Assembly: GCA_913057725.1 (NCBI GenBank)
Contig: CAJXOS010000002.1
Span: 1 to 64,000 of the forward strand
DNA from: an uncultured Lewinella sp.
Lineage (GTDB): Bacteria; Bacteroidota; Bacteroidia; Chitinophagales; Saprospiraceae
Direction of reading: 5' to 3'
Length of the DNA: 64,000 nt
Positions 45,694 through 47,266 of this stretch are shown in pieces (the first letter of the stretch is position 1; every line of letters starts with the position of its first letter). The position numbers and the translations under genes are program-made. The notes below the pieces were generated by a model, which did no database searches, was not told the origin of the DNA, and saw nothing but the letters and a program-made list of their open reading frames with translations.

Positions 45694-45850
45694 TTCCTCC
45701 CAATTTTTCGATAAACATAAGTAAGTCAAACAGTAGCAAATCCTATTGAGGTAGCCCTTGCGGTCTTATCCTCTTATTCCCATTGAATTCACTACCTTAG
45801 CGCGGTACCTAATAGTACTACGTGAAAAAGTACTTCACAATTTCTATAAA

Positions 45851-45907
45851 GACTATTGGATCGTGAATTCACTTAAGCTGGACCGTTCCATCCACGATCC
45901 AGTAGTC
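45851..45907. repeat. Long inverted repeat upstream of parA
   Basis: 15 bp arms GACTATTGGATCGTG (45851-45865) and CACGATCCAGTAGTC (45893-45907), fully paired with one T-G wobble, around a 27 nt loop. It ends 41 bp before the parA start. No T-run follows, so it is more likely an operator, a centromere-like site or an RNA hairpin than a terminator. Confidence 0.65.
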
Positions 45908-45948
45908 GAATTTGTCAAGCTAATTTTTCTGCGACACTAAGCTGACTC

Positions 45949-46713
45949 ATGGGAAAGATCATTTCGCTATTGAACCACAAAGGTGGGGTAGGTAAAACCA
46001 CTAGCACGATTAACATCGGTGCCGGCATGGTAGAGCTAGGCAAGAAAGTACTTCTTGTTGATCTCGACCCTCAGGCCAACTTAACCTTATCCCTGGGGAT
46101 TCCCCGGCAACCCATCACCATTTATGAAGCTATCCGCGGCGAGGCCGAGCTTGATCCGTATACGGTCAAGCCAGGTTTGGACGTGGTTATCTCCACACTA
46201 GACTTATCTAGTGCAGAAATGGAATTGATCAATGAAGCTGGCCGAGAATACATCCTGCGCGAGATATTTGACCCTTTCCGGGAGGATTACGACTTTATTC
46301 TCATCGATTGCCCTCCTTCTTTGGGGCTGCTCACATTGAATGCGCTTACTACCAGCGATTTCGTACTCATTCCGTTGCAGACAGAGTTCTTAGCATTACA
46401 GGGACTAGCCAAGATTAAGCAGGTCATCCAGAAGGTTCGATTACGACTGAACAAAGGGTTAGATATCGGAGGTGTGATCGCCACCATGTACGATGCGCGT
46501 AAGGTCCTCAACCGAGATGTAGTAGAGACTATCAAGAAATACTTCGGCCCGCTGGTTTTCGAAACCTACATCCGCGACAATGTTGCCTTAGCCGAAGCAC
46601 CAGCACAACGCAAGGACATTTTCGCTTACAATCGGAATAGCCCTGGAGCAAAGGACTACCTTTCCTTAGCCCAAGAGATCATTAGTCGCTCTAATAAAGC
46701 AGCAGAACGGTAA
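45949..46713 (+). CDS. ParA family ATPase
   Basis: A 254-residue Walker-type ATPase of the ParA/Soj family that positions DNA or protein cargo. The deviant Walker A is NHKGGVGKTTSTIN, Walker A' is LLVDLDPQANLTLSLG, Walker B is DFILIDCPPSLGLLTLNAL. No N-terminal DNA-binding extension, so type Ib or chromosomal-like. Next to it, instead of a full ParB, is a 149-residue ribbon-helix-helix protein; a long inverted repeat lies upstream. The pair may be an accessory segregation or cargo-positioning module. Confidence 0.93.
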   Translation: MGKIISLLNHKGGVGKTTSTINIGAGMVELGKKVLLVDLDPQANLTLSLGIPRQPITIYEAIRGEAELDPYTVKPGLDVVISTLDLSSAEMELINEAGREYILREIFDPFREDYDFILIDCPPSLGLLTLNALTTSDFVLIPLQTEFLALQGLAKIKQVIQKVRLRLNKGLDIGGVIATMYDARKVLNRDVVETIKKYFGPLVFETYIRDNVALAEAPAQRKDIFAYNRNSPGAKDYLSLAQEIISRSNKAAER

Positions 46714-46816
46714 AGGAATTTTCGCGAACAGGAAACCGAAAAGCGGTAAAATACCGTTATATTACAGATAAGGCTATCATGATTCAATAGCCGCTCAAAT
46801 TAGAAAACCGAATAGT

Positions 46817-47266
46817 TTGGCCAAGAAACGCTTTACGGAAGGACTCGATAGCCTGTTTGGTGATGCTGATGAACAGCAAGGCCAGCAGACGCTATCCCTA
46901 TTCCCGGAAGAGTCTCCTAGCGGAAGTGCTAAACGTGATGACGAAAAGAAGAGCAGCAAAGGATTTGCCTCGCAGCTCGATGCTTTTCTGGCTGAAGCTT
47001 TCGAAAACGAGCCTGCACAAGCAAAAGAATCAACGAAAAAAGCTAAGCCTAAGCGACGTCTAGCCGGTTTGGATCTGCTCATTCAACAAACCGCGGAAGC
47101 TCCAAAACGGGGCACCACCAAACTTGCCGACAAGCGTCGACTAACTTTGGCCTTTGATAAAAAACAATTGGCTGCGCTCAAGCAAATTGCTGAAGCTCAA
47201 GGCGTCTTTTTGAAAGACTTAATTGCTCAGTTGATTGAACGTTATCTGGAAGAACGCGACAAATAA
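46817..47266 (+). CDS. ParA partner: ribbon-helix-helix protein
   Basis: A 149-residue protein starting at TTG (46817-46819); no in-frame ATG precedes the conserved region. The N-terminus MAKKRFTEGLDSLFG resembles the ParA-binding N-terminal peptide of ParB proteins. Two similar modules follow (SQLDAFLAEAF, residues 52-62; RRLAGLDLLIQQT, residues 80-92). Residues 107-148 look like a ribbon-helix-helix domain (RRLTLAFDKKQLAALK; GVFLKDLIAQLIERYLEE), a DNA-binding fold used by small ParB-type proteins. It follows parA by 103 bp. Role as centromere-binding partner is inference. Confidence 0.75.
   Translation: MAKKRFTEGLDSLFGDADEQQGQQTLSLFPEESPSGSAKRDDEKKSSKGFASQLDAFLAEAFENEPAQAKESTKKAKPKRRLAGLDLLIQQTAEAPKRGTTKLADKRRLTLAFDKKQLAALKQIAEAQGVFLKDLIAQLIERYLEERDK

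Follow-up and report, generated by a model that had tools for sequence, protein, structure and literature searches.

A ParA ATPase of plasmid kinship and its small ribbon-helix-helix partner with three ParB-tail-like modules: a probable chromosome-resident version of RHH-type partition modules in Saprospiraceae

The closest described relatives of the gene pair presented here are the plasmid partition modules of ribbon-helix-helix (RHH) type, such as ParF-ParG of TP228, delta-omega of pSM19035 and the one-module pairs of Bacteroidota plasmids (those of Tenacibaculum, Flavobacterium, Adhaeribacter and Bacteroides p5482 were compared). These systems and ours have in common a ParA without N-terminal HTH, a small RHH-type protein encoded downstream and, on the latter, an N-terminal tail for docking to ParA, which in our case is a putative one. 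Our system differs from them in being chromosomal, in having three modules instead of one and in the frequency of an upstream array (9/98 loci, against 10/22 for the plasmid type). According to the accessible part of PMC9499535, at least four contiguous heptad DNA repeats are required in pSM19035 for efficient ParA activation, and the N-terminal peptide alone is not an efficient activator. A chromosomal ParA with an RHH DNA-binding partner is likewise known from Sulfolobales archaea under the name of SegAB, in which SegB recognises scattered sites; unlike our partner, SegB is reported to be without sequence identity to bacterial proteins, and palindromic SegB sites are located upstream of segAB whereas none were found at the loci described here (triple modules are not mentioned in the accessible part of PMC12284271, from which these statements on SegAB are taken). 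Compared with McdAB-like systems, our partner has an RHH-like domain instead of one of McdB type. As for the chromosomal ParABS of the same organism, the tail of its ParB (LGSGIDALF) resembles the first module of our partner (FTEGLDSLF), but our partner has no ParB_N match, our ParA belongs to another clade and a separate parAB exists in the organism. Literature searches, mostly outside subscription journals, retrieved no paper that we recognised as dealing with a ParA/three-module pair.

The pair was found in a 64-kb stretch of DNA from an uncultured Lewinella sp., called the window hereafter, of which an earlier note had claimed that it encodes a ParA and a small partner carrying three ParB-tail-like motifs. 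Both open reading frames are present on the forward strand: that of the ParA ATPase at 45949..46713 (254 aa; RHH-linked plasmid-type lineage by sequence) and that of the partner at 46817..47266 (149 aa, TTG start; three modules followed by a C-terminal RHH). In the ORF list of the window they are co-directional, and 103 bases separate the end of parA from the start of the partner. The partner starts with a codon other than ATG in most members of its family, the first aligned letter being M in 32, L in 30 and V in 28 of 98; L or V at this place points to TTG or GTG starts and possibly to weak translation. The word GTGAGTAA, enriched 3' of parA, is in this reading the start codon of the partner. 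We consider the pair a real conserved system and a new, chromosome-resident version of the RHH-type ParA partition modules. Its fold, gene link, modules and plasmid kinship are supported by the results given below, from which we infer a working model.

The ParA matches the Pfam model AAA_31 at 193 bits and its nearest solved structure is that of M. xanthus ParA (8ray, E 2.7e-60). It has no N-terminal HTH extension, the P-loop beginning at residue 9 of 254 aa, and the deviant Walker A residues K11/K16 together with D40 are invariant in 103/103 orthologs (the 103 ParA orthologs and the 98 partners used throughout are non-identical sequences, many of them from draft or metagenome assemblies). The residues forming the ParB pocket of M. 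xanthus ParA, as given in the accessible part of PMC12462528, are kept in all 103 orthologs (L125, L127, L130, L167, Y59 and E92) with one change, M. xanthus L187 corresponding in every case to K162. This position is K in 16/24 plasmid-type ParAs and L in 20/22 chromosomal ParAs. A second exchange concerns the DNA-binding residue R238, whose mutation R238E abolishes DNA binding in M. xanthus: its place is taken by A, S or T in 103/103 orthologs and mostly by A or S in plasmid-type ParAs, while 22/22 chromosomal ParAs have R or K there. As far as sequence comparison can tell, the residues at both positions agree with plasmid kinship. Since R209 is invariant and R189 is kept in 102/103, DNA binding by a ParA of this type may rely on shifted residues. 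Compared over 20 genomes, it is also better conserved than their chromosomal ParA, with a mean identity of 79.6 against 72.2% (177/190 pairs); in the window genome, the two ParAs are 41.6% identical.

The plasmid kinship emerges from searches and from a tree. ParA relatives at E<=1e-50 were found in 116 plasmid records, the best being about 62% identical, in Tenacibaculum, Flavobacterium and Adhaeribacter, and the 40 plasmid ParAs listed are 55-63% identical to the window ParA; the plasmid search with the partner as query gave nothing at E<=0.01. In a quick ParA tree of 85 rows, for which 34 of the 103 orthologs were sampled, 22/22 chromosomal ParAs form one clade, the sampled orthologs and the window ParA form another (SH-aLRT 95), and the window ParA lies within the RHH-linked clade. 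On these alignments, the ParA groups with plasmid-type ParAs and not with those of the chromosomal par locus, plasmid-type being understood here as kinship of the ParA: only L212-L217 are plasmid records, several others being contigs, some of them large. Nearest to the orthologs in the tree stand two long-branched Balneolaceae ParAs; the partners of these two, of 87 and 90 aa, have no N-terminal module recognisable by a fixed pattern. Two further loci, both of Saprospiraceae genomes, L230 (G575:C49) and L231 (G537:C26), have a plasmid-type ParA of 51-54% identity and a partner of 114-123 aa which, by eye, lacks modules 2 and 3; G575 holds both a three-module pair and this second, plasmid-type pair.

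Despite its kinship, the pair could be assigned to the chromosome in four genomes. The earlier note had proposed that the chromosomal par locus is a separate one, and indeed the sole ParB_N match of the window genome is encoded elsewhere (C87), together with its own ParA. The window pair itself is on a 113-kb contig of a draft genome. Concerning homologous pairs, for which the earlier note had envisaged plasmid or chromosome, they were located together with parB on one chromosome-sized contig in G001 (7.5 Mb, one contig), G554, G556 and G060, at a distance that is not fixed. Because the contig is shared with parB, the pair in these genomes is chromosomal and is not the main par locus.

The two genes are also tightly linked. 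When 150 genomes of this family were searched, 91 were matched by the profile of the partner and a ParA ortholog (70% or more identity to the window ParA) was found in 88, all of which have the partner (88/88); neither gene was present in 59/150, and the three genomes with a partner match alone correspond to a plasmid-type pair (G537) and to matches at a contig start (G550 and G557). In 86/88 genomes the partner gene comes after parA in the same orientation, at a distance of no more than 786 bases. The two others are G543, with 2.5 kb and other ORFs between the genes, and G060, where a 4.3-Mb contig carries ParA and partner at a distance of 1.7 Mb from each other; both reading frames are open there and the partner has three modules by eye. 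That both genes were retained in G060 after their separation speaks for a link in function that does not depend on the operon. That the two genes are linked, as the earlier note had supposed, is thus borne out by their co-occurrence, and the opposite outcome, no conserved link, did not occur. Named relatives with the pair are Lewinella, Neolewinella, Phaeodactylibacter, Saprospira and Aureispira (Saprospiraceae and kin), to which metagenome-assembled genomes are added. This distribution bears on the idea of an anti-plasmid or incompatibility factor, in which a captured plasmid par module would disturb the partition of related incoming plasmids. The plasmid kinship of the ParA, the precedent of ParI on a genomic island (in the accessible part of PMC9178275) and the presence in G575 of a second, plasmid-type pair beside the three-module pair speak for it, but the pair is found in 88/150 family genomes with a highly conserved ParA, the multiple-of-9 arrays described below are nearly absent from its loci, and PADLOC detected nothing for the partner and only weak ATPase-like matches for ParA, so that we consider this role quite unlikely.

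The C-terminal part of the partner was characterized by profiles and structure prediction. In the searches of the partner, no Pfam model exceeded the cut-off, with no match to PF02195 (ParB_N), and NCBIfam gave no match. A profile of 29 partner homologs found ParG (1p94) as its best profile match, at E 7.5e-4 over the C-terminus. The AF2 model has a mean pLDDT of 71, rising to about 94 over residues 111-149, and its residues 104-149 were aligned by VIA-align mostly with RHH proteins (PutA, ParG, omega, CopG and Arc; best Z 5.2); Foldseek with this model against solved structures gave none at E<=0.001, the top matches being again RHH proteins. Profile, model and structure comparison place the domain at residues 106-149 (47132..47263, forward strand), with the strand K-R-x-T; about 97 members could be aligned over this strand, and of these 94 keep R108 and 89 keep T110. 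The R-x-T strand can also be read in the Flavobacterium-type plasmid partners and resembles the pattern of CopG. The modelling therefore supports the RHH fold that the earlier note had predicted for the C-terminus, and an absence of this fold was not what we obtained.

Upstream of this domain, the alignment of the 98 non-identical members (127 ORFs minus 29 outgroup ORFs) presents three conserved blocks which, like the RHH itself, stand out from variable linkers. Family conservation and profile scans define module 1 at residues 3-14 (KKRFTEGLDSLF, 46823..46858), module 2 at residues 48-62 (KGFASQLDAFLAEAF, 46958..47002) and module 3 at residues 79-94 (KRRLAGLDLLIQQTAE, 47051..47098), all on the forward strand; the AF2 helices at 7-14, 49-63 and 85-93, predicted with modest confidence, coincide with the three motifs. 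With the central leucine as the anchor of the alignment, the blocks can be written as F-T-x-G-L-E-S-L-F, F-T-S-D-L-D-S-L-L and P-L-S-G-L-D-A-L-I. The positions of L11, L15, L18 and I19 of M. xanthus ParB (reference positions from the accessible part of PMC12462528) are hydrophobic in the blocks; the exception is block 3, which usually has P or R in place of L11. The relatedness of the modules claimed by the earlier note is confirmed by their conservation and by mutual profile ranking: with the block-1 profile, block 2 ranked first of about 107 positions in 85/97 proteins, while block 3 was among the two best in 72/97; with the block-2 profile, block 1 ranked first in 95/98 and block 3 first or second in 86/97; the block-3 profile was weaker, placing block 1 first in 35/98 and block 2 first in 29/97. 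A simple pattern of hydrophobic spacing fits blocks 1, 2 and 3 in 97/98, 94/97 and 52/97, respectively, and one fixed spelled pattern recognises three modules in 68/98 members, two in 29 and one in 1. Ahead of every module the sequence is basic, the mean net charge over six residues being +2.9, +2.0 and +2.8 for modules 1, 2 and 3.

The resemblance to the ParB tail was evaluated with a profile of 20 nine-mers taken from 29 ParB N-termini of related genomes, of which 22 had a motif readable by eye (two repeats of nine-mers already used and seven ParBs without clear motif were excluded). Block 3 ranked first in 59/97 proteins and block 1 was among the three best in 78/98, while block 2 had a median rank of 6. 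Only 10%, 0% and 41% of blocks 1, 2 and 3 scored above the 95th percentile of shuffled maxima, and for this reason the three modules rest on conservation and rank, not on the score of a single sequence. In M. xanthus ParB, loss of R13 reduces binding moderately and almost abolishes ATPase stimulation (accessible part of PMC12462528). The equivalent position is D or E in 63/98 first modules and most commonly S, D or A in module 2 and S, T or A in module 3, so that nearly all modules lack the basic residue on which stimulation depends in M. xanthus. The N-terminal peptide thus agrees with a ParB tail, as the earlier note had proposed, in its hydrophobic residues and its rank, and departs from that of M. 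xanthus in the stimulating residue; since the central position is mostly D/E, S, A or T, putative ParA-docking is a better label than ParA-stimulating. The missing residue is not peculiar to the partner, as this position is basic in only 4/20 of the related ParB tails used.

Plasmid-type partners have one N-terminal module in 23/26 cases and none in three (L041, L177 and L179); an earlier count of 20 selected outgroup partners, 20/20 with one module, was widened to these 26, and for Lawsonia (L215) the partner is located outside the stretch compared. It is possible, though doubtful to us, that module 1 alone docks ParA, the two others serving for contact with a further factor (self-association, or another nucleoid protein) or with a different face of ParA. 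In favour of such a division of labour, 23/26 plasmid-type partners have a module of type 1 alone, module 2 is a poor fit to the ParB profile, and module 3 has a conserved tail of its own (R90, T92) and a profile that finds the other two less well. Against it, the profiles of blocks 1 and 2 give the other blocks the first rank or one close to it, and three similar modules exist in a second family. The latter was reached by a profile search of 395 class-level genomes, which matched 11, three of them in the window's own family; six of the eight matched genomes outside it have a ParA-like gene at the locus. A search with one of these outside-family partners matched 9/13 genomes of one family (f23), all nine loci having a ParA of 44-48% identity. 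Eight of the nine partners carry three K-x-F-L-x-x-[LI] modules before the C-terminal domain (in two of these eight the first module was read by eye) and the ninth carries two; AF2 puts helices on the modules with low confidence, and two of the loci are on contigs of 7.5 and 8.2 Mb. As the partners of the Balneolaceae neighbours show no recognisable module, a passage from one module to three during the history of the pair is only presumed.

The DNA around the pair was searched for a target of the partner. Upstream of parA, a putative Bacteroidota -7 promoter element, TACCTTAG, is located at 45793..45800 on the forward strand; we take it to be such from the Bacteroidota consensus, TACCTTAGCG is shared with the same-genus loci L003-L005, and TAnnTTTG-like words are among the top enriched words 5' of parA. 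The gap from the putative promoter to parA holds a dispersed hairpin-forming repeat of ~120 bp (45814..45940, forward strand, from aligned copies) with four further copies in the same genome (L234-L237; 70-74% identity) and an RNA fold z of -4.2; none was seen 5' of parA in L003-L005, and an Rfam search gave no match. In the 160 bp 5' of parA, a search for a shared operator (101/152 loci kept after removal of near-copies) returned mostly promoter-like words, together with AAACATAC, found in 10/101 loci against 0.7 expected on one strand. Inside parA, no strong buried site was detected in 97 sequences, the best 9-codon synonymous window reaching 1.30x expected with a mean of 1.09. RHH proteins are commonly repressors, and the partner could mainly repress its own operon and modulate the level of ParA, no transport being involved; the lack of a conserved operator 5' beyond promoter-like words and AAACATAC, as well as the retention of both genes 1.7 Mb apart in G060, make this very unlikely.

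Counts of 9-mer repeats 5' of parA were clearly above their shuffles only for the alphaproteobacterial contig L171 (10 copies). The more sensitive TRF, evaluated with dinucleotide shuffles, detected an array 5' of parA in 10/22 plasmid-type loci (shuffled mean 1.3, max 3), six of them with multiple-of-9 periods, and 3' of parA in 5/22 (shuffled mean 0.7, max 2), all multiples of 9. For Saprospiraceae, the corresponding figures were 9/98 upstream (shuffled mean 2.2, max 6; one multiple of 9) and 6/98 downstream (shuffled mean 0.9, max 4; no multiples of 9). Some chromosomal Saprospiraceae loci do hold arrays, the counts being above shuffles but fewer than for the plasmid type; in this comparison 12/22 plasmid-type loci have no array 5' of parA either, and the two groups also differ in descent and in upstream G+C (25% against 35%). 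The multiple-of-9-bp arrays which flank parA in L212, L213, L166, L167, L170 and L178, Bacteroidota plasmids or plasmid-like contigs, are rich in AGTAA or GTAAA and are candidate centromeres of one-module partners. In the alphaproteobacterial MAG contig L171, about 21 copies of a 27-bp repeat lie just 5' of an RHH-linked parA. Scattered sites, by analogy with those of SegAB in the accessible part of PMC12284271, would fit the lack of a local array, and a site that is distant or single may also exist.

The searches for DNA sites having found none, we also considered that the pair positions a protein cargo in the manner of McdAB or PpfA, the RHH only dimerising or binding protein and the cargo being cytoplasmic. 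Transport of protein cargo is described for several chromosomal ParAs that do not belong to a par locus (accessible part of PMC9178275). We regard this as unlikely, however, as the R-x-T of the RHH strand is conserved, also in the Flavobacterium-type plasmid partners, and no conserved cargo gene accompanies the pair in the loci compared. Flanking genes are not conserved there and give no hint of a cargo: no conserved cargo gene was found in the 64 loci compared, whose flanks reached 10 kb at most and were often shorter, a membrane-protein-like family 3' of the pair being present in 17/64 loci and a regulator-like gene 5' of it in 16/64 (both named by eye, and neither present in the window).

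Our preferred reading is that the pair is probably a partition module made of a plasmid-type ParA and an RHH centromere-binding protein, which turned into a chromosomal accessory system in Saprospiraceae. The partner would dimerise through its RHH and hold a chromosomal DNA site, as the conserved RHH strand suggests. Its flexible arms would bring six docking helices of each dimer within reach of the ATP-bound ParA that covers the nucleoid. Binding of these helices to the pocket at the ParA dimer interface would tether the site and eventually trigger ATP hydrolysis, and the bound site would be moved or spaced by the usual ParA ratchet. ParA binding, stimulation, the DNA target and transport by the pair are all deduced by us from these comparisons. 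Several observations weigh against this reading: no DNA target was found 5' of parA or inside it, nearly all modules lack the basic residue, K162 and the exchange of R238 set the ParA apart from that of M. xanthus (the latter change being shared by plasmid-type relatives), the Balneolaceae neighbours have no recognisable module, 59/150 family genomes have neither gene, and the flanking genes are not conserved in the loci compared. Within this accessory-system reading, we propose, only tentatively, that valency shifted from DNA to protein: one dimer bound to a single site, each of its chains contributing three modules, would do what in plasmid RHH systems takes several dimers lined up on a repeated centromere. 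The proposal comes from the heptad array needed in pSM19035 and from the correlation of arrays with the two groups of loci. The fewer arrays of Saprospiraceae compared with plasmid-type loci fit, without proving it, a replacement of the DNA centromere array by protein repeats, and two families of the class have three-module partners encoded on contigs of chromosome size. We lowered our confidence in this shift because one-module partners are also found on large contigs (L174, 5.3 Mb) and because the Balneolaceae neighbours have no module.

Together, these results indicate that many Saprospiraceae possess a second, chromosomal ParA system of plasmid kinship, whose partner has three modules where most plasmid-type relatives have one. 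As each chain has three modules and most loci have no detected array, the family makes it possible to ask if peptide repeats may substitute for a repeated DNA centromere, and it lends itself naturally to finding out if ParA activation is governed by the local number of docking sites rather than by DNA architecture. The pair could be a bacterial counterpart of archaeal SegAB, existing beside the usual ParABS.
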